The position numbers and the translations under genes were made by a program. The notes below the pieces were generated by a model that ran no database searches, was not told where the DNA came from, and saw only the letters and a program-made list of their open reading frames with translations. Shown here piece by piece: positions 42,970 to 64,000 of a stretch of DNA of 64,000 nucleotides. The stretch is from NCBI RefSeq assembly GCF_009905215.1, contig NZ_CP047593.1, forward strand, positions 930,001 through 994,000, read 5' to 3'. The DNA is from Tichowtungia aerotolerans (GTDB lineage: Bacteria > Verrucomicrobiota > Kiritimatiellia > Kiritimatiellales > Tichowtungiaceae). Numbering within the stretch: the first letter of the stretch is position 1; the number at the start of each line of letters is the position of its first letter.

Positions 42970-43233
42970 TCGCAGTCATGTGTCCGTCTTTCGGGACTGC
43001 CGCAGCACATCAATTATCTCTTCAAACAGGAACTCGGCATCAGCCCAACCGCCCTGCTGCATCTCGAACACTGCAAGCGCGCCTTCCTGCTGATCCGGAA
43101 CGACCGCCTCAGCGTCAAGGAAGCGGCCGAACGAACCGGCTTCTGCGATGCCTATCATTTTTCCAAGGTGTTTAAAAAAACCTACGGCTTCCCGCCCGGC
43201 CTGATCACCCGTTTTTTCAAGCCGCAAAGTTAA
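42970..43233 (+). pseudogene. AraC-family regulator fragment (C-terminal helix-turn-helix only)
   Basis: An open frame with no start codon, beginning immediately after the rex stop in the same frame. It reads L-P-Q-H-I-N-Y-L-F-K-Q-E-L-G-I-S-P, then L-S-V-K-E-A-A-E-R-T-G-F-C-D-A-Y-H-F and F-K-K-T-Y-G-F-P-P, the two helix-turn-helix units of AraC proteins, with the first helix cut. The sensor domain is missing. Probably debris of a regulator at the edge of the accessory block. Confidence 0.8.
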
Positions 43234-46200
43234 TCCTGAAAAACAACCCAACCGGCGGTTTCTGTTGGCAAAATGGTTTGCTCTGCATCATACGAGGTCT
43301 CTTCCTGTCCGCGCAGATGAACACCGTAGGATCCAAGGTTTTCGTGCCGCAGAACTGTCGGATCCTCGTTGTTGAAGGTATTCAGCGAAGCGAAAATGCG
43401 TGGATTGGTGAGCGGAGCGGCGCTGTAACTGATCCATTTGTCTCCACTGTAGATTCCGGTTGCAGTTCCGACCTCAAACGCTGAACTGTCCGACTGCCCC
43501 GGCTCCATGAGTACAAAGCCGGTGATCTCGCCCGAGTGAACCTGATAGGCATCGGATGCGAACAGAGTATTTGTTTCCTGCGACTGCAGATGAACGAGGA
43601 AGCCGTTAGTGGAGACACTGCACACCCGGGGAGCAACTGCATTGGTGTTGTAATCGGTCTCCACCTGCGCCAAAACAACCGGAGAGGAAGAAAATGCCTC
43701 CGTCGGCACAAATGTAAACTGATTTTCATCATACAGCTTGAGGCTGTAAAAACAACCGTCTTTCACGCTGCCGGAGCTGTATGTTCCCAATGTAATGTAA
43801 TTGCTGCTCAGCCCGTCCTGTGTATGAACCAACCCGGCAGCAGTCCCGTTCAAATCAATCGGCATGCCGTTAACCGTCAGCCGGATCGTTGCCGTTCCGC
43901 TGCCGTCAAACGCAGACGGTGTATCGACCTGCAGTGCAACCTGATATTGGGCAGCGGTCAGGTTGGTGGCAGCGGCGGTCAGTTCCTGCCCCTCGGCCCA
44001 GCACCGGATATCGCCGTTGCTGTAAATGCGCAGGGCAAAACCGCCGGACGGGTTCGCGTCATTTGAATTCTGAGCTCCGAAAGAAATGACATTGTATTCG
44101 GCCGACCCGACTTTGGTTTCGGTTTCGATCCGGAAGCGCCCGGTGTCCGAGAAACTGACATCCGGCGAAACACTGGCGAGATTATTGTTTGCGTACAGGC
44201 GAAAATATGAACTTCCGTTCGGCATCTGCTGCTGCCAGTCACTTCCGTTCGGTCCGCAGACATAGTCGATCACCTGCTCATACGCCGAAAAACCTTTCTG
44301 TCGCAACTTATCCGAATCCACATCGATGTTATAGTTTACGTCCTGCGTATTCGGGTTGTCCGTTGCATAGAATTCGTCTTCAAAGAGGCGCAGGTCGTCC
44401 GTGACCCAGGCTTTGGCTGCAACCACCTTTTGTCCGTCAATCGTGTAGGTTCCCGGCGGGATGGCCAGCCAGTGGACCGTTTCGTTCATATGCGATCCGT
44501 CGTCGCACTCCCACTCCTGCACCTTCGCCTGGAAATTGGTGCGGGTTACATTGCGAATCCTTGTCGATACCGGAGAGGTTCCACTGTAAGAAGGCGGACC
44601 CAGGATCACGACGGGCGGGTAATCATAAACATTCGTGAAGCTGATTGTCGTCCAGCTGTCATTCAGCGTTGCGGCTCCAAGCTCAAAGGCCGCATTCACA
44701 CCGTCCGCCCCGGTTGCCGTCGCAAAGGCATTAATCCGGTCAACCCCTTTAAACAATGACGGAACAATCCGGGCGCCTTCCGAACAGTCATTCCATCCAA
44801 ATGAATGAACCAGCGGAACTTCCGCGGACAGCGGGAAGTCATTCACCCAGTTACGGGCATCCTGAAGCATTTCGACAATCCGGTCCGGCGCAGCTTCTGT
44901 TTTCCACGGCCCCCTGGGATAACCGTCATTCCACGCCGCGCAGTTTTCCTGCCGGGGGAACGGATCCCAGCCGGTCGAAGCCTGCGGCAGGTATCGGTGG
45001 GAAGCTTCGTCGCGGTATGCGTTCCATGAAGAATATCCGGTGACTCCGCCGGCATAGCGGGAATAGGAATCTATCGTTTCCCCGAAATGCGCCACGGCAT
45101 TAGTGATTTCATTATAGGTCCAGCAGGTTCCCACAATGTAAGGATCTCCGGTCCCCTGAGCGATGGATGCGGCGCTCAGATCTTCCAGCATGTAGGCCAC
45201 GTTGCTGTAGGATCCGGCACTGATGTAGGACGGCAGGTTGAAAACATAAATCAGCGGCCGACCGTCCAGCACCTTGAAGTAAGCGGAATTCGTCATCAGG
45301 TTCAGGAACCAGTCTTTCATTCCGTATTCCCAATAAGAAAACCCGGAGCCCATCATGTCTACGCAGAATGAAACCTGCGACCGGCGACTGCTTGCAAGAT
45401 ACATCTGCAGCCCATAATCATTCAGGTTGTTTTCTCCGACATACCTCGGCGGATAGGTATCCCAAACGATATAGTCGATTCCCGCAGCAATCGCATAATC
45501 CAGCTGCTGGTCCATTTCAGCCTGCGTATCCGACCCGAACACGCTGCTGTCTTTACCGGTAATCTCCCCGTAGTAGGGAATCCGTTCCTGGAAATAAGCC
45601 GGACTCAGCTCCTCGATTCCCTGCAGGCCGACGGCATCGTTTGTTCCTGTGTATCCATGCCACCATCCGACACCATGCAGCGGAGTCCGGTCATAAAGGG
45701 ACAGCTCCCGAATCCACGCCTGCTGGTAAGAAGAAGCATATGCGCCGAATGTGATAAAGTTGTCGGCAAATCCATCGGTTTCATGGGCATACCCGGCAGC
45801 GGTTCCGTTCATATCCCAGATCTCGCCGTTAACGCGCGCATGGACCCGGGCGGTGCCCCCGCCGTCAAACCCCGGCGGCGTACTGATGTAGACATCCACG
45901 GCAAAAACAGATGTTCCGGAAAGGGAAGCGGCAGCCGCAGTCACCTCGCTTCCTCCTGAAAAAAGCTTCAGGTCCCCGTTGGAATAGAAACGAAGCGAAA
46001 TTCCGGCAGAGGGAAGATGAACGCCCTGAATGCCTCCCAGATTGACAAAGCAGTACGATGATGTATACGGCTCAACCGTCATGTGCAGATGGAACTCGCC
46101 GGTTTCTGAAAAATCATGATTGAGCGAAACACGCGGCGCCGTGTTGCCCGCCGTCGGGTAAATGCGCACAGCGGCAACTTCATCATTCATCTGAATCTGC

Positions 46201-46385
46201 CAGTCATCGCAACCGGCTTTCGCATAGGTCTGCGTGGCAAGCGTACCGCTCTGCCGGGCATCCAGCTGAAGATTGAGATCCCACGTGTCGGCTGTCACCA
46301 TAAAGCTGTCCGTGAACTGAACCTGAGAACCGGCAGCGACCGAAGCAACCGCAAGACTTGATGCGGCAAAAAGCTGAAACAGCAT
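43230..46385 (-). CDS. Secreted multidomain GH99-like protein with duplicated lectin modules
   Basis: 1051 residues. Signal peptide, then residues 25-235 a concanavalin-like module (L-N-L-Q-L-D-A-R-Q-S-G-T). Residues ~236-575 form a GH99/WbsX-like barrel (G-W-W-H-G-Y-T-G at the start, I-D-Y-I-V-W-D-T-Y, D-G-R-P-L-I-Y-V-F, H-S-F-G-W-N-D-C-S-E-G at the end). Residues ~580-670 resemble an H-type lectin fold (P-P-V-V-I-L-G-P, E-T-V-H-W-L-A-I). Residues ~690-890 are a second concanavalin-like module resembling the first, and the last ~150 residues repeat the lectin-like fold. Probably degrades a (sulfated) glycan outside or in the periplasm. A terminator separates it from the sulfatase gene upstream. 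Confidence 0.75.
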   Translation of the reverse strand: MLFQLFAASSLAVASVAAGSQVQFTDSFMVTADTWDLNLQLDARQSGTLATQTYAKAGCDDWQIQMNDEVAAVRIYPTAGNTAPRVSLNHDFSETGEFHLHMTVEPYTSSYCFVNLGGIQGVHLPSAGISLRFYSNGDLKLFSGGSEVTAAAASLSGTSVFAVDVYISTPPGFDGGGTARVHARVNGEIWDMNGTAAGYAHETDGFADNFITFGAYASSYQQAWIRELSLYDRTPLHGVGWWHGYTGTNDAVGLQGIEELSPAYFQERIPYYGEITGKDSSVFGSDTQAEMDQQLDYAIAAGIDYIVWDTYPPRYVGENNLNDYGLQMYLASSRRSQVSFCVDMMGSGFSYWEYGMKDWFLNLMTNSAYFKVLDGRPLIYVFNLPSYISAGSYSNVAYMLEDLSAASIAQGTGDPYIVGTCWTYNEITNAVAHFGETIDSYSRYAGGVTGYSSWNAYRDEASHRYLPQASTGWDPFPRQENCAAWNDGYPRGPWKTEAAPDRIVEMLQDARNWVNDFPLSAEVPLVHSFGWNDCSEGARIVPSLFKGVDRINAFATATGADGVNAAFELGAATLNDSWTTISFTNVYDYPPVVILGPPSYSGTSPVSTRIRNVTRTNFQAKVQEWECDDGSHMNETVHWLAIPPGTYTIDGQKVVAAKAWVTDDLRLFEDEFYATDNPNTQDVNYNIDVDSDKLRQKGFSAYEQVIDYVCGPNGSDWQQQMPNGSSYFRLYANNNLASVSPDVSFSDTGRFRIETETKVGSAEYNVISFGAQNSNDANPSGGFALRIYSNGDIRCWAEGQELTAAATNLTAAQYQVALQVDTPSAFDGSGTATIRLTVNGMPIDLNGTAAGLVHTQDGLSSNYITLGTYSSGSVKDGCFYSLKLYDENQFTFVPTEAFSSSPVVLAQVETDYNTNAVAPRVCSVSTNGFLVHLQSQETNTLFASDAYQVHSGEITGFVLMEPGQSDSSAFEVGTATGIYSGDKWISYSAAPLTNPRIFASLNTFNNEDPTVLRHENLGSYGVHLRGQEETSYDAEQTILPTETAGWVVFQD

Positions 46386-50318: not shown

Positions 50319-52715
50319 TTATCGCGGCTCCGTACGCGTGACTGCGCCGATGTTGTCCAGCCACGGCTTCCCGCTCACAGTGGTAAACTCGACACTCAGA
50401 CTGCCGGAATTGGAAACTGTCACCGTATTGGTATAGGTCTGCCATGTATCCGGATCGAGACCCGTCGTATCGACCGCCATCGTGTACGGGGTTGTTCCAA
50501 CTCTGAAGACCGCATTAAAAACCCCGCCGCCGGTCGTACTTGACTCGCTTTTTGCATTTCCACCGGAGAATGTCACCGTAAGCGTATCCCCTGCATTCAC
50601 AGTTGTGGCCAGATCCTGGCTGATCGTCCCGATATTATTCATCAGAGCCATCCAGCTGCCATCCGGCGACGTTGTAAAGTGAGTTGTTCCCATATTCAGC
50701 TGGTAAAGGCTGCTGCCGGTCGGATTCCAAACAGGATGAACAACGCTCCATGATCCCGACGCTCCCGGAGGATCTTCGAAACTGCCGGATTCGACACTGA
50801 TGAACGACGTCGGGCCCGCCTCTTCAACGACACGGAAAAACCGCATGGAATCATCCGGCAAAACGGCGCTGAGCGTGTTCGTACCGGTGCCGGACGCCAG
50901 AATATTTTCATACGTCGCAACTCCATCATTGTATTTTGTCCAGACCGGGTTTTCGAGGGACGTACAGGTTTCGACATCGTACTGCTTCAACTCCGTACTC
51001 TCCCATTCAAAACCGATCATGGCGCCGTTCAAGGCCATTTTGAGCTTCCAGGGAGTCAAAGCCCGGACAGCGGTCACATCACCCGCAGTAAACGAACCAT
51101 CGCCATCGATATCAAAATCGGACAGATTCAGGGCCGCCAGTGCCTCGGCCGCCGTCATGCCGTCACCAATCAGAGCCGCCTGACGGTCGGCCGCACTCAG
51201 GCCGCCGTTGCCATCCAGATAATTCTGAGCCAGATCCGCATCATCCTGATCCACAACCCCGTCTTTATTCAGGTCTCCCTCCTGCGCTTCAATCACAGCA
51301 TGAAGAGAAACCGAATCGAGCTGCACCTGTGAAACCAGCGCAATGTTCTTCACGTCATTCGAAGCGACACCGCCCGGAAACCCGGGAATCTCGGCATCAC
51401 ACACATGGTTAAAGATTACATTCACCGGGCCGCTTCCCTGAACGGCCAGCAGATCCGCACCACTGATTGACACTGCTGCAGGAGAGCCAAACGAAGACGG
51501 CAGAGCCGTTGAGACAAGCTGCTGAAGAGTTCCGGCAACGGCATTGGCGGTGTTGGTTACATCCGATCCGGACCCGGTCGTTAACGCAACCGTAAACGCC
51601 GACTCAGAACTGTTCCAGGATGGATCCAGCAAGTCTGTCACAAACTGATACGTCGCATCGGAATCAATGGCAACCCCGTTCAGAATATCTTCCTGTTTCA
51701 ATCCGTTGCGATAATCCATGGATGAGTTCAGCACAACCGTATCGCCGTTTAAATGGGTATCCAGATAGAATGTCCCGTCGAGTTCCCCGTCCCCATCATT
51801 GACATGCGGGGTACCGACCGCCGGAATCAAACGGTTGGGATCCTCATAATAATGCGACCAGCTCTCAAGGTCTGCAGTGGCATTGGCTGTCGCGGAAAAA
51901 TCGCCAAACGTCCCGGTCATATTCCATTGCGAGGCGTCTGAAGGAACCTTATTGGCCAGTGCACTGAAGTCGCCGTTAGGAATCAGGTTTGGACCGGTGA
52001 TATCCGCAAAAGCGGGAAACGCGGGAATACTCTCTGCCGTTACGGACACATTATCAAACTTGACGGAGGAGGTTGACGGATCGCCATCACTGTACCATCC
52101 AAGCATGATACGGTTTTCCGCCTCCACGGTTCCGGCATAATTGGTGTTTCCGGAAGAAAATACATATTGCCAGCCATTGAATGTGGCAGAAACAGCGTTC
52201 CCGCCTTGATAATGAACCACCAGCGTATTGATGTTGGTAACATACGCCGTTACATTGGACTGCCCGCGGAATGCACCGTTATCATAAAAACCGAGCAGGT
52301 AATCCCCGGTTCGGTTATCCACCCTAAAACTGTAGCCGGCATTCGCACTGAACCCGTCCGTATCCGCCAGCCCGAAATTGACCATCGCAAAACCGGCCTC
52401 GCCGTTGGGAAACTGCATATCGACTGAAATCTCAATATCATCAGCAATTGGAGCAAAATCTGCATCGAGTGACGCAAAGACCGACCCGGCCGTTCCGGCT
52501 TTGTAGAGCCGCATCGTGCCGCCTTCAATCTGCGACTGCCAGTTGTTACCGACATTGTCGTTCCATTCTGCCGGCGCCTGTGTCCCGGACTGCCGCAGTT
52601 CCAAATCGGCATTAATATCCTGACCATTGGACGTATTAAACGTATCGTTGAACAAAAGCAGCTCAGCCTGAACAAAGCCGGCCAGAAAAATTACTGCACT
52701 CAACAATCTTTTCAT
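50319..52715 (-). CDS. Secreted protein with lectin-like and dockerin-like modules
   Basis: 798 residues. Signal peptide (A-V-I-F-L-A-G-F-V-Q-A), a concanavalin-like module (residues ~20-235, with L-E-L-R-Q-S-G-T as in two other proteins here), and a beta-rich region with N-L-I-P-N-G-D-F-S at about 246. A dockerin-like calcium segment follows (G-D-L-N-K-D-G-V-V-D-Q-D-D, and later D-F-D-I-D-G-D-G-S-F-T-A-G-D-V). The C-terminal ~160 residues are a second beta-sandwich (S-V-E-S-G-S-F-E-D-P-P) like carbohydrate-binding modules. Likely a glycan-binding scaffold. First gene of the minus-strand locus, divergent from the AraC regulator. Confidence 0.72.
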   Translation of the reverse strand: MKRLLSAVIFLAGFVQAELLLFNDTFNTSNGQDINADLELRQSGTQAPAEWNDNVGNNWQSQIEGGTMRLYKAGTAGSVFASLDADFAPIADDIEISVDMQFPNGEAGFAMVNFGLADTDGFSANAGYSFRVDNRTGDYLLGFYDNGAFRGQSNVTAYVTNINTLVVHYQGGNAVSATFNGWQYVFSSGNTNYAGTVEAENRIMLGWYSDGDPSTSSVKFDNVSVTAESIPAFPAFADITGPNLIPNGDFSALANKVPSDASQWNMTGTFGDFSATANATADLESWSHYYEDPNRLIPAVGTPHVNDGDGELDGTFYLDTHLNGDTVVLNSSMDYRNGLKQEDILNGVAIDSDATYQFVTDLLDPSWNSSESAFTVALTTGSGSDVTNTANAVAGTLQQLVSTALPSSFGSPAAVSISGADLLAVQGSGPVNVIFNHVCDAEIPGFPGGVASNDVKNIALVSQVQLDSVSLHAVIEAQEGDLNKDGVVDQDDADLAQNYLDGNGGLSAADRQAALIGDGMTAAEALAALNLSDFDIDGDGSFTAGDVTAVRALTPWKLKMALNGAMIGFEWESTELKQYDVETCTSLENPVWTKYNDGVATYENILASGTGTNTLSAVLPDDSMRFFRVVEEAGPTSFISVESGSFEDPPGASGSWSVVHPVWNPTGSSLYQLNMGTTHFTTSPDGSWMALMNNIGTISQDLATTVNAGDTLTVTFSGGNAKSESSTTGGGVFNAVFRVGTTPYTMAVDTTGLDPDTWQTYTNTVTVSNSGSLSVEFTTVSGKPWLDNIGAVTRTEPR

Positions 52716-54788: not shown

Positions 54789-55667
54789 TCACGCCGCCAG
54801 TTTGACGACTCCTTCATAAACTTCTTCCGGTGTTGCGCCTTCAAGTGACTGGTGAGGCCGCTGAAGGTTGTAACGCATGATATACGCTTCAATGCCTCGT
54901 TCAAGCACCCATCCGTTTTCATACGATCTGAGATAGATATCTTCATATTTCAGACTGCGCCAGAACCGCTCGATCACTACGTTGTCGAGCCAGCGGCCTT
55001 TGCCATCCATGCTGATGATTACGTCCAACTCTTTAAGCCGCCTGATCCATTCATCGGATGTGAACTGGCAGCCCTGATCGGTATTGAAGATCTCCGGCGG
55101 AGTCCCCGTACGTTCAACGGCCCGATTCAATGTCCGCACGCAAAAGGCCGTATCCAATGTGTTCGACAGCTCCCAGGCAAGAACCTTTCGGGAGTGCCAG
55201 TCGATAATCGCAAACAGATACATGAAGCCCCGGGCCATCGGTATATAGGTGATGTCTGCGCTCCAGACCTGGTTCGGCCGGTCGATTTTCAGCCCCTGAA
55301 GCCGATACGGATAAATGCCCGTCGGCCCGCCGGGGATGGTGGTGCGCTTGCGCGGATACACCGCCTCAATGCCCATCAACATCATCAGGCGTTTTACGCG
55401 GCCACGGCTGATTTTCGGCCAACCTCGCCGACGAAGGTAGTCCCGTATTCTCCGCGCACCGGCGGAGGCATCTTCCATATGCAGCTCGTCGATCTCTTTC
55501 ATGATGCGCAAGTTTTCTTCCGATTCGCCCATCGGCAGGTAGTAGATTAATGAACGGGGGATCCCCAGCAGCTTACATTGCCGGCGAATACTGATTTTTG
55601 ATTCCTTACTCACGAGCTGCGCCCTCTGCCGGGAATCCCCAGCTGTACGCACTTTTTTTCGAGCCAA
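54789..55667 (-). CDS. IS3 transposase OrfB (DDE integrase core)
   Basis: About 290 residues. D-D-E catalytic residues are in W-S-A-D-I-T-Y-I-P, F-N-T-D-Q-G-C-Q-F and E-R-F-W-R-S-L-K-Y-E, with the HTH_21 region (R-R-I-R-D-Y-L-R-R-R-G-W) before them. In this family it is made as an OrfAB fusion by -1 frameshifting; the overlap with orfA contains a run of seven A on the coding strand (55653-55659), the expected slippery site. Confidence 0.93.
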   Translation of the reverse strand: MARKKVRTAGDSRQRAQLVSKESKISIRRQCKLLGIPRSLIYYLPMGESEENLRIMKEIDELHMEDASAGARRIRDYLRRRGWPKISRGRVKRLMMLMGIEAVYPRKRTTIPGGPTGIYPYRLQGLKIDRPNQVWSADITYIPMARGFMYLFAIIDWHSRKVLAWELSNTLDTAFCVRTLNRAVERTGTPPEIFNTDQGCQFTSDEWIRRLKELDVIISMDGKGRWLDNVVIERFWRSLKYEDIYLRSYENGWVLERGIEAYIMRYNLQRPHQSLEGATPEEVYEGVVKLAA

Positions 55668-55924
55668 TCCACCTCCATGGACAACTGGCCCACTTTGCGC
55701 TCCAATCGGGCTTTCTCTTGCTCGACCTCTTTGTCGGGCGCGGCGTTCTTCCGCTCAAAGACTTCAGGAACCCGTTCTAAAAGTTCCTTCTTCCAGTTAC
55801 CGACCTGTACCGGGTGCAATTCGTATTTCGCCGCGATCTCGTTAATCGTCTCCAGCCCTTTGACCGCCTCGAGTGCGACACGGGCCTTGAACTCCGCCGT
55901 GTGTTTCCTTCTTTGTTTCTTCAT
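55610..55924 (-). CDS. IS3 OrfA (helix-turn-helix protein)
   Basis: 104 residues. R-R-K-H-T-A-E-F-K-A-R-V-A-L-E-A-V-K-G and I-A-A-K-Y-E-L-H-P-V-Q-V-G-N-W-K-K form the DNA-binding helix-turn-helix; a leucine-rich helix (residues ~62-88) serves for dimerisation. Shine-Dalgarno GGATAGGAGCT before the ATG. The seven-A slippery run near its 3' end allows fusion with OrfB. Confidence 0.93.
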   Translation of the reverse strand: MKKQRRKHTAEFKARVALEAVKGLETINEIAAKYELHPVQVGNWKKELLERVPEVFERKNAAPDKEVEQEKARLERKVGQLSMEVDWLEKKCVQLGIPGRGRSS

Positions 55925-56745: not shown

Positions 56746-58173
56746 TTATTCGCCGTAGAGTTTATCGATCCACTTGGGGCGCGGCGGCAAGGTCTGCATC
56801 CATGAAAACAGATCCTTTTGGAGACGGTCGGCGACTTCCGGATAGTCTTTGATCAGGTTGTTCCGCTCTCCCAGATCGTCCGAGAGGCGATACAGCTGGG
56901 CGTCGCCTTTGTGCGTGTAATACTTCCACTCCCCGTCGCGAATAGCAGTCTGCGTTGCCCACTGCGTCAGATAGCGCCAGCGCAGGATATGCTTCGGACC
57001 GGCGTCCGTAACCGTCGGCAACAGCGTCGGCAGCAGATTAACGCCGTCTTTTTCTGCCGGAGTCTCCGCGCCGGCCAGCGCGAGAAATGTCGGCAGCAGA
57101 TCCAGGCTGATCACCGGCCAGTCCGCCGTCTGGCCACCGGCCAGATGTCCGGGCCAGTTGAAGATCATCGGAACCCGCACGCCGCCTTCCTGAAGGCTTC
57201 CTTTGAATCCGTTCAGCGGCCCGTTCGATCCGGCGTTGTAGCCGTGCGACCAGCTGCCGGGAGCGCCGTTGTCGCTCAGAAAAACAACCAGCGTATTTTT
57301 TCGAAGCTTCAGATCGTTCAGCGTTTCGACCAGACGACCAATATTTGAATCCATGCTTTTCAGCATGGCTGCATAAATCCGGCGGACCGGATCTTCTATA
57401 TGCTTGAACTGATCAATCAGTTCCGGCGGAGCTTCCATCGGCCAGTGCGGCGCGTTGTACGCCAGATAGAGAAAGAACGGACGGCCATCCTTTTGAGCCG
57501 CCGAGACGAAATCAATCGCATAATCTGTAAAGACATCCGTAACGTATCCCTCTTCCCACGGAAGGACGATATCGTTTTCATCACGGAACCGATCCCCCCA
57601 CCAACCGCTGGGCGGATTTTCCTGATTCCAGTCTTTCTGGCATCCACGGTTCGCCGGCCAGAAATAGCCCATGCCGCCGCGCATATAGCGGCACCATTCA
57701 AACCCGTTGCGGAACGGCTGGGAATCGAGCGTTTCGCCGATGTGCCACTTGCCGATCATTCCCGTGCGATAGCCGGCATCCTTCAGCAGATCGGCCATCG
57801 TGCTTGTTTTTCCGTCCTGGAAACCGAACAGGTGCAGATAATGATCATCCGGGTTTGCTTCGAGACCCAGCCGCTGCTGGTGCACTCCGGTAATCAGCCC
57901 GCAGCGCGAAGGCGTGCACTGCGGTGCCGTTACATGCGCATCGGTGAACCGGACCCCTTCCGCCGCCAACCGATCGAGCACCGGGGTGCTCAGATCCGTT
58001 GCTCCGTAACAGCCGAGATCGCCGTACCCATGGTCATCGGACAGAATCAGAATAATGTTTGGGGAGGTCCGAGCCGGACTGGCAACATTTGCTCCATCCA
58101 CAGGAGACTTTGCCACGGCAGCCACACCGGTAACAACAGAAAGCAATACTAACAAAAAATGTTTTTTCATCAT
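56746..58173 (-). CDS. Type I formylglycine sulfatase (arylsulfatase A-like)
   Basis: 475 residues. Signal peptide, I-I-L-I-L-S-D-D-H-G-Y-G-D-L-G-C-Y-G, activation motif Q-C-T-P-S-R-C-G-L-I-T-G (C-x-P-S-R), G-K-W-H-I-G and F-L-S-D-N-G-A-P with the second metal pair. Periplasmic or secreted. Overlaps the preceding fusion sulfatase gene by four bases, so it is the last of a four-gene minus-strand operon. Specificity cannot be set from motifs alone. Confidence 0.92.
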   Translation of the reverse strand: MMKKHFLLVLLSVVTGVAAVAKSPVDGANVASPARTSPNIILILSDDHGYGDLGCYGATDLSTPVLDRLAAEGVRFTDAHVTAPQCTPSRCGLITGVHQQRLGLEANPDDHYLHLFGFQDGKTSTMADLLKDAGYRTGMIGKWHIGETLDSQPFRNGFEWCRYMRGGMGYFWPANRGCQKDWNQENPPSGWWGDRFRDENDIVLPWEEGYVTDVFTDYAIDFVSAAQKDGRPFFLYLAYNAPHWPMEAPPELIDQFKHIEDPVRRIYAAMLKSMDSNIGRLVETLNDLKLRKNTLVVFLSDNGAPGSWSHGYNAGSNGPLNGFKGSLQEGGVRVPMIFNWPGHLAGGQTADWPVISLDLLPTFLALAGAETPAEKDGVNLLPTLLPTVTDAGPKHILRWRYLTQWATQTAIRDGEWKYYTHKGDAQLYRLSDDLGERNNLIKDYPEVADRLQKDLFSWMQTLPPRPKWIDKLYGE

Positions 58174-60779
58174 TCCACCGACTCCACTTTAAGCTTTCGA
58201 AACTGACTGTTTACCGGTTCGGGGCCGGGCCTCGGCTCACTGTACATTCCCAGCGAAATATAGTTGCTGTTCATCCCGTAAATTACATGATCCGAAAGAA
58301 CATTTTCTCCGTTGGCCCGGACCGTAATTTTGGACTCACCCTGCGTGTTGAAAGATCCGTCAGTTTCTATTTCGGCCTCGATCAGATACTGCTTCCACTG
58401 ATTCATGACCACCGGAAGACGAACCAACTGAGTTTCTCCCTGCATCACCCGAACCGTTCCGTCCGAATAACACCCCACCCAGAACCCAGCCGGATTCTTC
58501 ACGTCACAGGGCTCATGTCCACCCAGGGCAACAAAGGCAAAATCTGAGTTCTGCGGACGGACCGAAACGCTCAGCTTCAAATGACCTGCTTCGATAAAAT
58601 TATGGTTCAGCCCCACCTTCACAGACCCCGTCCGGCCGGCGTGACGGGCCAGCTGCAGATAACTCGAACCATGACGGGTCGGCACAGACGTATACCACGA
58701 ATCTGTATAAGCCTCCCCTTGCAGATAGGGAACGGTCCCGTACTGCTTCACCAGCGTACCCGATTGCCGTAGATCCAGTTTTTGGTTCAGCCCAACCGTC
58801 TCTCCCGGGGTAATCCGGGCATCAAACGAATCTTCAAACAGTACCGCCGCATTCACCGCGGAGCTGACCGCCAGCGCGGCGAGACCTGAAATTGTTTTCT
58901 TCATATCACTCTCCTTTGTCTTAGCACCACTGGACCAATCAACCGCATTTCGCGGCGCTTGCACTTCCACCTGAAAATCAGACTTCTGCTGCGGGACAAT
59001 GCCCCGAAAAACCGCAAACGACTTTTTCTCCATTAACGGAAAATTGCATTTGTCGTTAAATTTACCGATCGGCTCATACGCAAGCGTTTCGGCCTGCGCA
59101 TACGGCTTGTTCATCCAGATTCTTTCGCCGCCGCAAAACGCTGCCATCGGAATATGCGTTCGTCCCCACTGACGAAACCCGCCCGACTCGAAGAATTCGA
59201 ACGTCACATAAGGATCGTACTCTGTCCGCCGCGCCACGGGAACAACCAGATAATACGCATCGCCCGGAGATAGGGGCATCCCGGACAAATCAAAAGGCTG
59301 CACAAGCCGTTTCGTATTGGAAGGGAAATCGCCGGAAGCCAATTGCTGTCGAAGGGACTCCTCACCACCACCGGCTGCAGGAATTACATAACAGGATTCC
59401 AGCAGGCTGGATTCACGCGGAGTATACCCGGTTTCTTTCTTGGATTCCTCAAGCCGGATCTCCATTTCCCGCCGCACGTTTGAAAATTCCGGATGGTTGT
59501 ACAGGTTTCGTTTCTCATGCGGATCTGCGGCAAGATCGTAAAGCTCCTTCACCGGCTTTTCCTGATAGTCAATCAGCTTGTATCGGTCCGTCCGAACCGC
59601 CTGCATCGGAGGCAGCGCCCCGCCCCATTCATTGTAAAAATCGAAAAAGAAACTGTCGCGCCACTCCAGATCGTTTTCGGTAAACAGCGCCGCCCAGCTT
59701 CTGCCGTCCATTCCGGACAGCGGCTTCGCCCCGCACAAATCCAGAATGGTCGGCGTGATATCAAGGTTGAGCACCATCTGTTCGCGCTGCGATCCCGGTG
59801 GCACCATTTTCGGGTAGCGAACAATCATCGGGACCCGCATCACCTGCTCATAGGCATAATGCTTTTCAGAAAGCCCAAATTCACCAAGCGAATATCCCTG
59901 GTCGCTGGTGTAGATCAACAGCGTGTTATCCAACTCGCCGGACGTTTCCAAGGTTTGGAAAATTGTGCCGACCGATTCGTCAATCGTCAGCGCCAGCCGA
60001 CTGTAGCTGCGCACCCACTCCTCAAAAGTTCCATAGCTTGGGATCGCAGGCTGGAACTGCATCGCAGGCAGGCAGTTTCCAGCCAGTCCCGGCTTTTGCA
60101 AATCCCAGGTCTCCGGCTTTTCAAACACGGTATCCCCCAACCGGCCTTTCATCCGCTGCGGATATTCAAATGGAATATGCGGAGACTTCAGCCCGACCAC
60201 TAAACAGAACGGCTGCCCGCCGCCGCTCCAGTCGCGAATGCGCTGAGCCGCCAGCTCCGCCAGCCGGTCGTCCGTAAAGCCGGAACCGGCGCTTTCCTTT
60301 CCGTTCACCCACAACGGCTGATCATGGAACTTTCCAACGAATGGAAATCCGATCCACTCATCAAAACCCGGCTTCGGTTTTTCATCGTCCCCCAGATGCA
60401 GCTTGCCGATGTAGGCCGTGCGATAACCGACCGCTTTCAACTGCTCGGCAAATGTGTGCTGTGTCCGCAAAAAGGAATTGTTCTTCCAGATAATTTCCGG
60501 TGCCGATGCGCGGTGCGCATAGCGGCCGGTCAGAATCGACGCACGCGACGGCGAACAGACGCCGGAACAGGCAAATGCGTTCTCAAATGAAATCCCTTCC
60601 CGCGCCATCCGGTCGAGATTCGGGGTTTCCATAAATGGATTTCCTTTGTGCCCCATCCAGTCCGCACGATGATCATCGGCAATAATCAAAACCACATTCG
60701 GTTTGGACGCAGTTTCTGCCCGAGAGGCTCCCGTCGCCAGCAAGGCCATTGAACCGGCAATTTTCAGATAATGATTCAC
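58170..60779 (-). CDS. Sulfatase fused in frame to a second secreted lectin-like protein
   Basis: 869 residues. Residues 1-620 are a full sulfatase: signal peptide, L-I-I-A-D-D-H-R-A-D, V-C-S-P-S-R-A-S-I-L-T-G, Y-T-S-D-Q-G-Y. After a linker the frame runs straight into what looks like a separate gene: Shine-Dalgarno AAAGGAG (58911-58917), ATG 58904, and a second signal peptide (K-K-T-I-S-G-L-A-A-L-A-V-S-S-A-V-N-A-A) before a concanavalin-like module with L-D-L-R-Q-S-G-T. The module resembles those at 43.2 and 50.3 kb. Either a stop codon was lost or both a fusion and a separate 244-residue protein are made. An exact palindrome at 59945 encodes F-Q-T-L-E. Confidence 0.85.
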   Translation of the reverse strand: MNHYLKIAGSMALLATGASRAETASKPNVVLIIADDHRADWMGHKGNPFMETPNLDRMAREGISFENAFACSGVCSPSRASILTGRYAHRASAPEIIWKNNSFLRTQHTFAEQLKAVGYRTAYIGKLHLGDDEKPKPGFDEWIGFPFVGKFHDQPLWVNGKESAGSGFTDDRLAELAAQRIRDWSGGGQPFCLVVGLKSPHIPFEYPQRMKGRLGDTVFEKPETWDLQKPGLAGNCLPAMQFQPAIPSYGTFEEWVRSYSRLALTIDESVGTIFQTLETSGELDNTLLIYTSDQGYSLGEFGLSEKHYAYEQVMRVPMIVRYPKMVPPGSQREQMVLNLDITPTILDLCGAKPLSGMDGRSWAALFTENDLEWRDSFFFDFYNEWGGALPPMQAVRTDRYKLIDYQEKPVKELYDLAADPHEKRNLYNHPEFSNVRREMEIRLEESKKETGYTPRESSLLESCYVIPAAGGGEESLRQQLASGDFPSNTKRLVQPFDLSGMPLSPGDAYYLVVPVARRTEYDPYVTFEFFESGGFRQWGRTHIPMAAFCGGERIWMNKPYAQAETLAYEPIGKFNDKCNFPLMEKKSFAVFRGIVPQQKSDFQVEVQAPRNAVDWSSGAKTKESDMKKTISGLAALAVSSAVNAAVLFEDSFDARITPGETVGLNQKLDLRQSGTLVKQYGTVPYLQGEAYTDSWYTSVPTRHGSSYLQLARHAGRTGSVKVGLNHNFIEAGHLKLSVSVRPQNSDFAFVALGGHEPCDVKNPAGFWVGCYSDGTVRVMQGETQLVRLPVVMNQWKQYLIEAEIETDGSFNTQGESKITVRANGENVLSDHVIYGMNSNYISLGMYSEPRPGPEPVNSQFRKLKVESVE
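59945..59963. repeat. Dispersed palindrome copy (exact core), inside sulfatase gene
   Basis: TTTCCAAGGTTTGGAAAAT, read on the minus strand as F-Q-T-L-E-T. The only exact copy in the accessory region. Confidence 0.8.
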
Positions 60780-62857
60780 TGCACTTTCTCCACGCTTCTT
60801 TGAATAGAACCTGCCACCTGAGAAGCAAGCTTTCGGATTCCGGCATCCGCATAATGCACGTCGCCGGGAGCCATAAAATAATCAGCGGGGAATGACGCGC
60901 TCAACGAATACAGGTCATCTGTTTCCACGCCATGTTTTCTCATAATTTCTGCAGCAGCCCGGTTGTACTTCTGCTCATCTCCAACAAATCGTCCGGGTTC
61001 GTTTTCCGGCACTACCGTGATCGGCGCCCAGATCAGTTTTGCTCCGGTCTGTTTCAGTCGAACGACCAGTTTTTCAAGATTGGCTATATAGTGAACCAGC
61101 GGCACCGACTGGGCACCGTTTACCTTGTCACGGTTCCCGTACAGATGAGTCGCCTTCGGATTTCGATAACAGAGATCATGCAGTCCCCAGTTGAAATGAA
61201 TGATGTCCCAGCGGTTCGTTCCCAGCCATTGATCAAGGCCTTTCAACCCGACCTCGGTCGACCCGCAATTGACCGGTTTCTTCCGTTTTGGGTCAAACGG
61301 ACGGACAACATTGGCAATTCCCCGGAGTTGTTTCCGAACATCAGACGTATACTGAATCGAAATGGAATCGCCGATCAGCAGGACATTCGGCAATTTCCAG
61401 GATGCGCCAGAATCACGGTTCGGATCCGTGACAATCCGACGCATATCTTCTGCCTGCCTGAATTCCAAAGAGTCATACTCTCCGTTATGACTGTCCGTGC
61501 GCCAGTGAACCGACGCATCATAACCGGGATTTTCTGTCGGCATCTGTGCGCCAATGCTGAGCAAATGGTTATGCAGCATTTTCTTCATCCGCGCAGCCAC
61601 TTCCGGATGCGTTGATATCAGGTTGCGACTTTCGCTGATGTCCCCCGCCAAATTAAACAGTTCCAGCTTTCCGTCTTCGTAATGCTCAATCAGTTTCCAG
61701 TCTCCGCAACGCACAGCACCATGCGGCGGCATCGACTGATAATGAGGATAATGCCAGTAAAGACAATTGCGATCTAATGTATCGCCTTGCAGCAAAGGCA
61801 GCAGTCCCTGCCCATCCAAATGCTGTTCCGGCTTCAATGACAGCCCGGCCATTTGTAAAAAGGTTGGATAAAGGTCATTGCTGATCACCGGGGTCCTACA
61901 CACTGTCCCGGCCAGCGTCACGCCCGGCCAGCGGATCAGCAGCGGCACCCGGATTCCGCCTTCATATAAAATGGATTTCCCGCCGCGATAGGGCCGGTTG
62001 CTCGTGGCGGTAATGCTTTTTTTAAGCTCCTTGTCGTACACCTGACTCAACCCGCCGTTATCCGAGAAAAAAACTACCGCCGTGTTCTGTTCCAATCCAA
62101 GCTCTTTGAGCTTTAAGAGAACGCGCCCGACGCTCCAGTCCATTCGCTCCACCATCGCGGCATAAACCGGATTGTTCTGGCCGTTAGAGCCCGGAGTCTT
62201 TTTCCGATACTTCGCAATCAGATCTTCTTTTTCATGCAGCGGCACATGAACCGTTCCGTGCGAAAGGGTCAACAGAAACGGTTCGTTCCGGCGCTCTTCC
62301 ATAAACCGTTCGGCGGCGTCCGTGTAATATCGGACAAACCACGGGTCCTCCAGATCCGGATTGGACCATGCATCACGCGCGACTGTCACCGTTTCAAAAC
62401 CATGTTCGGAAGGCTCGCGACTTCCGACATGCCATTTGCCGATATGACAGGTTGCAAATCCTGCCGCACGAAATGCCTCGGCGTAAGTAACCTCATTGTC
62501 ACGCATGTACTTGATCCAGTCCTGCGGATGGCTCAGTTTTGCCTTTGGGCACTCCTGGCCCGGAATGTAGGCTGTCAAATGAAGGCGGGCCGGATAACGC
62601 CCAGTGAGGATACTCGCCCGCGTCGGCGAACAGACCGGATGCGCTGAATAGGCATTTTCAAACCGAACCCCTTCCGTCGCAAACCGGTCGAGATTCGGCG
62701 TTTCATAATACTCGCTGCCGTAACAACCGAGATCTTTAATTCCCAAGTCATCGGCCAGAATAAAAACAATATTGCGAACCGTCGGCACCTGTTCTGCAAA
62801 CGCCCGGCTTAACAACGTCAGACCGGCCGCAAAAAACCATTTCGACCCGCATTTCAT
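60776..62857 (-). CDS. Sulfatase fused to an SGNH-type hydrolase
   Basis: 693 residues. Residues 1-460 are a type I sulfatase (L-A-D-D-L-G-I-K-D-L-G-C-Y-G, V-C-S-P-T-R-A-S-I-L-T-G with C-x-P-T-R, F-S-D-N-G-G-L). Residues ~490-690 are an SGNH/GDSL hydrolase: L-I-G-D-S-I-S (Ser), F-N-W-G-L-H-D-L (where N is expected) and P-G-D-V-H-Y-A-D-A-G (Asp/His). This would remove sulfate and acetyl or other acyl esters from the same glycan. Overlaps the next gene and lies two bases downstream of the symporter. Confidence 0.9.
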   Translation of the reverse strand: MKCGSKWFFAAGLTLLSRAFAEQVPTVRNIVFILADDLGIKDLGCYGSEYYETPNLDRFATEGVRFENAYSAHPVCSPTRASILTGRYPARLHLTAYIPGQECPKAKLSHPQDWIKYMRDNEVTYAEAFRAAGFATCHIGKWHVGSREPSEHGFETVTVARDAWSNPDLEDPWFVRYYTDAAERFMEERRNEPFLLTLSHGTVHVPLHEKEDLIAKYRKKTPGSNGQNNPVYAAMVERMDWSVGRVLLKLKELGLEQNTAVVFFSDNGGLSQVYDKELKKSITATSNRPYRGGKSILYEGGIRVPLLIRWPGVTLAGTVCRTPVISNDLYPTFLQMAGLSLKPEQHLDGQGLLPLLQGDTLDRNCLYWHYPHYQSMPPHGAVRCGDWKLIEHYEDGKLELFNLAGDISESRNLISTHPEVAARMKKMLHNHLLSIGAQMPTENPGYDASVHWRTDSHNGEYDSLEFRQAEDMRRIVTDPNRDSGASWKLPNVLLIGDSISIQYTSDVRKQLRGIANVVRPFDPKRKKPVNCGSTEVGLKGLDQWLGTNRWDIIHFNWGLHDLCYRNPKATHLYGNRDKVNGAQSVPLVHYIANLEKLVVRLKQTGAKLIWAPITVVPENEPGRFVGDEQKYNRAAAEIMRKHGVETDDLYSLSASFPADYFMAPGDVHYADAGIRKLASQVAGSIQRSVEKVQ

Positions 62858-62858
62858 G

Positions 62859-64000
62859 CTATCTTCCCTGTTTCAATTTCTCTCGAATTTCATGAACCCG
62901 CTGCTCACTCAATGGATAACGCAGCGCAACAAAAATCGCCGCGGCAACCGCCAGTGCCGGCAGACCAGCCTCCAGCACACGCATCAACAATACAGTGGAA
63001 GCAACCTGTTCTCCGCCAAGCGACTGATCAAAGCCAGTCAACACCAGAAGCCCGCCGCCAACCAGCAGTGCCACGGACATCCCGGTCTTCAGAATCCATC
63101 CAAAAACAGCCTGATAACTCCCCTCGCGACGAGCCCCGGTGTGCAGCTCATCCAAATCACAGATATCGGCAATCATGGATGCCCCGAGCGTCCAGAGCGC
63201 CACAAAACCGGCGGCAATCAACACCGGAGGAATCACTACCAGCCAGGGATGGCTCGGATTATAACACCAGATTTTTGACACATGCCCCAAAAGGTTAATG
63301 CCGAGAAAACTGATAAAAGTTTTCTTTTTACCGATGTGTGTAGCCAGCCATGTCACCGGCGCAACAAACAAAATACTGCTGAGCACCCAGGCCGTACCGC
63401 CCCAGCCGACATACACCGACGCCGCTTTTGTATCACCGCCCATCACATAATAAATCGTAATGTACGGAGACAGCGTCGAGATCGTAAAAAAGCCGCTTGC
63501 CGCCAGAAACACCGCCAGCATCAGCTGCATAAAAACCCTGTTCGTACAGGTGGTTTTCAACCCGACCCACAAAGAAATCTTTTCCTGCCCGGCTACTTCC
63601 TCAAAATGTTCCTCCTTACAGAACAAAGCAGGAATGAATCCGGTCAGCATCAGCACCACTCCGACTCCGGCCCCAACCACCTGCGCGCCCTGCAGTCCGT
63701 CACGAAAAATATCCAGCTGGGTCAACGCAAACAGCCAGGGCATAAGAATAGCGCCGATGTTGGCAAACAGGTTGGAAAACGCCTGGATCCGGGTGCGCTC
63801 ATGATAGTCCCGCGTCATCTCCAGCCCCAGCGCACCCCATGGAACCATAAACACGGTCAGGGCGGTATAGAACAAAAGTGACAACCCCAGGAACCATGAA
63901 AAATAGGCGTATTCGCTCCACCCTTTCGGCAGGCACCAGATCGCGGAAAACAAGAGTCCCATCAACACCGCTCCGATCAGCATAAACGGTCGGCGGCGTC
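62859..64000 (-). CDS. GPH-family sugar:cation symporter (MFS), 5' end outside window
   Basis: About 380 residues visible. The frame is open to the right edge and reads R-R-R-P-F-M-L-I-G there, the family's loop 2-3 motif, so roughly 70-90 N-terminal residues are missing. About ten membrane spans. A-L-G-L-E-M-T-R-D-Y-H-E-R-T-R-I-Q is the diagnostic GPH segment. Takes up a glycoside or oligosaccharide with Na+ or H+. First visible gene of the operon with three sulfatases, so it probably imports the desulfated product. Confidence 0.92.
   Translation of the reverse strand, partial: RRRPFMLIGAVLMGLLFSAIWCLPKGWSEYAYFSWFLGLSLLFYTALTVFMVPWGALGLEMTRDYHERTRIQAFSNLFANIGAILMPWLFALTQLDIFRDGLQGAQVVGAGVGVVLMLTGFIPALFCKEEHFEEVAGQEKISLWVGLKTTCTNRVFMQLMLAVFLAASGFFTISTLSPYITIYYVMGGDTKAASVYVGWGGTAWVLSSILFVAPVTWLATHIGKKKTFISFLGINLLGHVSKIWCYNPSHPWLVVIPPVLIAAGFVALWTLGASMIADICDLDELHTGARREGSYQAVFGWILKTGMSVALLVGGGLLVLTGFDQSLGGEQVASTVLLMRVLEAGLPALAVAAAIFVALRYPLSEQRVHEIREKLKQGR

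Follow-up and report, generated by a model that had tools for sequence, protein, structure and literature searches.

A sulfatase frame with internal start signals

Towards the end of the window (the whole stretch of DNA that was analysed, 64,000 nucleotides) lies a minus-strand open frame in which a sulfatase runs on into a second secreted protein. The frame, its internal signals and the neighbouring genes are listed here.

56746..58173, minus strand: downstream sulfatase; its start overlaps the module stop (ATGA)
58170..60779, minus strand: single open frame, sulfatase plus secreted beta-sandwich module; 869 codons, GTG start, TGA end
58173..58904, minus strand: secreted module, predicted concanavalin-like beta-sandwich, 244 codons (from relatives and an AlphaFold2 model)
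58848..58904, minus strand: internal ATG and signal peptide MKKTISGLAALAVSSAVNA (from sequence, a heuristic signal-peptide screen and a hydrophobicity scan)
58911..58917, minus strand: Shine-Dalgarno sequence AAAGGAG, six bases 5' of the internal ATG (from sequence)
58920..58922, minus strand: codon 620, AAG, aligned with the TAG of the ortholog (global alignment)
58921..58923, minus strand: out-of-frame TAA just 5' of the Shine-Dalgarno sequence (from sequence)
58921..60779, minus strand: S1-type (formylglycine) sulfatase with signal peptide, CSPSR and a C-terminal extension of about 160 residues (Pfam and ortholog)
60776..62857, minus strand: upstream sulfatase with C-terminal SGNH/GDSL domain (Pfam); an apparent ortholog lies directly upstream in L028, the syntenic locus described below
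62859..63998 and beyond the window end, minus strand: MFS-type sugar transporter of the same operon (named by reading the sequence)

The original prediction had described a sulfatase frame running into a second secreted protein with an AAAGGAG, an ATG at 58904 and a signal peptide. All of these were indeed found, on the minus strand. The GTG start at 60779 shares a GTGA with the TGA of the upstream gene. The internal ATG (58904-58902) is codon 626 and is in frame with this GTG, and the signal peptide that follows from it reads MKKTISGLAALAVSSAVNA-AV. Codon reassignment was set aside, since the 869 codons contain no internal stop codon at all. Both the frame and its intact internal start signals are real, and the locus carries a warning for annotation: an 869-aa 'sulfatase' conceals a second secreted protein.

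We compared these internal signals with a sample of 603 ORFs of the same genome, drawn from about 864 kb, namely the window together with forty samples of 20 kb each. In-frame internal ATGs lying at least 100 codons into an ORF (n=4555) were screened for a Shine-Dalgarno match of at least 6 bases and a passable hydrophobic start, a simple heuristic other than SignalP. Two of the 4555 passed, namely ATG 58904 and one at another locus (L089), whose candidate start (MSWDPDRKEIAYLL...) was by eye unconvincing as a signal peptide. At no other internal in-frame ATG in the 603 ORFs did we find a strong Shine-Dalgarno sequence together with a convincing signal peptide.

By domain and motif, the first part of the frame is predicted to be a type I (formylglycine) sulfatase of family S1. 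Pfam Sulfatase matched residues 27-350 (9e-58, 196.3 bits against a cut-off of 25) and SGSH_C residues 299-448 (1e-38). The sulfatase part has an N-terminal signal peptide, and the maturation motif C/S-x-P-S-R is present as CSPSR at residues 75-79, as it is in the ortholog. The approximately 160 residues after SGSH_C had no match in Pfam, and a specific sulfatase name above the NCBIfam cut-offs was not obtained.

The frame is best read as part of a sulfated-polysaccharide operon. The transporter stop TAG is followed by a single C and then the ATG of the next gene, and the other operon junctions are one-base gaps or four-base overlaps. Relatives of the source organism are very rich in genes for S1 sulfatases and break down sulfated polysaccharides of algae (PMC10880615), and the content of the operon fits this background. 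Just downstream of the sulfatase operon an IS3-type transposase pair is found, consisting of two overlapping ORFs (54789-55924, minus strand).

The syntenic ortholog and the stop codon

A close ortholog of the window sulfatase was found in a Kiritimatiellales MAG (JAIPJC010000003.1, locus L028; the same place as G033 contig 124), with 73% identity over residues 13-618. It came from both the scan of the genome collection and the search of relatives and was the sole close one found; searching 388 genomes of the phylum with the C-terminal extension of the sulfatase gave no second ortholog, G033 being unreported in that draw. The operon context is conserved. The gene order in L028 is a sulfatase with SGNH domain, the ortholog, another gene, and an apparent ortholog of the sulfatase that comes next in the window, with which it has the C-terminus WIDKL(Y/H)GE in common.

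Comparison with orthologous loci had been proposed as a check, and in L028 the sulfatase is a separate gene with its own stop. It ends ...QTDQSK-TAG; AAAGGAG comes directly afterwards, and then the ATG with which a separate gene begins (GAAAGGAGCCCCGATG). The idea that loss of a stop codon fused two genes gains support from this arrangement, as the ortholog's TAG aligns with window codon 620. The gene that starts right after the TAG is a different sulfatase rather than the module. This unrelated S1 sulfatase (7.85-9.35 kb of L028) occupies the slot of the window's module gene, so that one locus or the other must have acquired or exchanged a gene precisely where the fusion lies. Since the next genes differ (module versus sulfatase), the junction DNA of the window and L028 is non-homologous, and with a single close ortholog found the ancestral state is unpolarised.

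Global alignment of the two sulfatases runs without a gap from about residue 479 to the end and places the TAG on codon 620, which is AAG in the window. Residues 607-619 have diverged and are poorly conserved, and a second alignment positions the tail differently, so that the reading of the ortholog's TAG as the exact counterpart of this AAG is suggestive. Synonymous difference between the two genes is about 0.7 throughout, and nonsynonymous difference stays at 0.04-0.27 as far as residue 606, beyond which the tail is unconserved. The sulfatase thus appears to be under purifying selection to about residue 606. This pattern and the ungapped alignment argue that the C-terminal extension is a true part of the sulfatase and that the sulfatase ends near codon 620.

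One base change, TAG to AAG, is enough to open the frame. As a substitution is by itself sufficient to account for the missing stop codon, the suggested resequencing of 58.9-59.0 kb for an indel is not the sole check called for. A frameshift was considered as the cause in place of a substitution. The out-of-frame TAA at 58921-58923 lends it little weight, since the odds of meeting a stop in one of the other two frames over a dozen codons are about even by chance, and this TAA is likely a chance occurrence.

The main rival to a stop-loss fusion is an assembly or sequencing error, in which a miscalled or dropped base around 58.92 kb masks the true stop and the two genes are ordinary neighbours. 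We consider such an error unlikely. It would take a single base, either a substitution at codon 620 or a one-base deletion upstream, hiding a stop at what now reads as the out-of-frame TAA, and the stop is present in the sole close ortholog. On the other hand, the genome is one contig, homopolymers at the junction are never longer than three, and no second junction of this type was seen among the 603 sampled ORFs, so that such errors seem infrequent. The TAA argues little for an error either, given its chance expectation.

The beta-sandwich module

The module proper consists of the 225 residues after MKKTISGLAALAVSSAVNA. Pfam gave no match in residues 626-869 and NCBIfam no name for the module; the family is uncatalogued and concanavalin-like. 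A search with the single sequence through genomes of the family (n=14), the order (n=43) and the phylum (n=388) returned the window's own copies only, and a profile from seven sequences was required to reach further relatives. This profile reached nine further genomes among the 388 of the phylum; no close ortholog of the module itself was found.

Within the window, two relatives lie in the protein at 43230-46385 and one at the start of the protein at 50319-52715. The former (minus strand, 1051 aa, secreted) has its two modules flanking a region that by eye resembles glycosyl hydrolase family 99-like proteins, and also contains two H-type lectin stretches. The latter (minus strand, 798 aa, secreted) carries the module N-terminally and gave a weak match of dockerin type. 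Module relatives are also found in the syntenic MAG locus, where a two-module protein related to the 50319-52715 protein lies near 13.8-15.2 kb. A truncated copy of 100 aa with a signal peptide is located outside the window (L047:9174-9476; G000:C1:999185-999457). It adjoins RHS/YD-repeat-like genes and seems to be a gene that was broken or cut short; as a sign of widespread errors it was rejected, since it is isolated and lies beside these RHS-like genes.

The module had been described as one that is found elsewhere as an N-terminal domain. In several relatives it does directly follow the signal peptide, and so far the description holds, but it is incomplete. The module is internal in other relatives, is carried C-terminally by a GH29 fucosidase (L056) and by a GH78 rhamnosidase (L051), and forms free-standing, single-module secreted proteins, each with a PEP-CTERM tail (L049, L052, L053). 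These free modules and the ortholog's TAG show that the two parts exist as separate genes in relatives. Given its position on the GH29 and GH78 enzymes, a C-terminal fusion of the module is unremarkable.

The AlphaFold2 model of the module is a beta-sandwich of moderate confidence (mean pLDDT 66.8, pTM 0.70). Its nearest solved fold neighbours are CBM66, the C-terminal beta-sandwich domains of GH32 and L-type lectins such as LMAN1 and VIP36 (Z about 11-13). The likeness is in the fold, whereas sequence similarity is insignificant, with 7-16% identity in the structure alignments. A profile sequence search found no solved structure, and two nanobody matches at E of about 0.5 were taken as noise. 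The model points to a concanavalin-like beta-sandwich fold, and from it the module may fairly be expected to bind carbohydrate.

Origin and predicted products of the fused frame

We consider it probable, though well short of certain, that tandem genes for the sulfatase and the module were joined by stop loss, that the fusion is tolerated, and that fusion and free module are both made. We infer that the change ran from stop to sense codon: the sulfatase stop just before the module's Shine-Dalgarno sequence would have been lost, most simply by TAG to AAG at codon 620. With the next gene in the same frame, the whole module protein, signal peptide included, would then have been appended to the sulfatase. 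In an operon packed this tightly, with genes that overlap or lie one base apart, it is to be expected that a single stop separates a gene from a neighbour in the same frame. Ribosomes from GTG 60779 would read through and yield an exported sulfatase-module fusion, and ribosomes from ATG 58904 would produce the free module. The strength and intactness of the internal start signals make it probable that the module continues to be translated from its own ATG, together with some of the fusion, and the earlier suggestion that fusion and free lectin are both made is plausible.

The original prediction had further held that an internal signal peptide in an exported chain should be deleterious unless cleaved. 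This argument is weak. The best 19-residue stretch of the internal segment comes to about +2.5 kcal/mol on the Hessa scale, so that the segment is a poor candidate for a membrane anchor and may serve as a linker. The fusion is probably tolerated, given that the sulfatase reaches its normal end ahead of the junction and that the hydrophobicity of the internal signal segment is weak, and it might pass the Sec channel whole.

The proposed stop-loss fusion would be a fresh example of an already known kind of event. Conversion of an upstream stop codon into a sense codon has been described as the commonest way in which overlapping unidirectional genes arise (PMC10666635). As in those cases, the upstream stop is absent beside a downstream start that has been kept. 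Such overlaps are usually out of frame and end early in the next gene, whereas here the frame is the same and a whole protein is appended. If real, the locus would offer a clean snapshot of how a multidomain secreted enzyme can originate, with the start signals of the second gene undecayed, and a natural test of how an internal signal peptide is dealt with in an exported chain.

We give little credence to a stable, selected bifunctional protein, in which the module would tether the sulfatase to polysaccharide and the internal signal peptide would be a relic or be cleaved, releasing the module. Its C-terminal place on the GH29 and GH78 enzymes, the CBM66-like and L-type lectin fold neighbours and the poor quality of the internal segment as a membrane anchor are all consistent with such a protein. 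CAZymes and sulfatases with an appended carbohydrate-binding module likewise combine a catalytic domain with a beta-sandwich, but in this frame the two are separated by a signal peptide. An old fusion would be expected to lose the internal Shine-Dalgarno sequence, ATG and signal peptide, which look unspoiled here, and no further fusion of the module to a sulfatase was found in the 388 genomes of the phylum.

That selection has shaped one frame to give two exported products, fusion and free lectin, the fusion perhaps being cut in two by signal peptidase as well, is in our judgement highly improbable. We see next to no likelihood for a programmed gene of which both products are required and whose arrangement is kept by selection. 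Strong start signals within an open frame are what such a gene would display, but the arrangement is absent from the relatives examined and one recent event, the loss of the stop, accounts for everything. Internal in-frame initiation yields a long and a short product in CheA, IF2 and ClpB. As in these proteins, a single frame here has two possible products; the difference is that the short product would be a complete, untruncated secreted protein with its own signal peptide.
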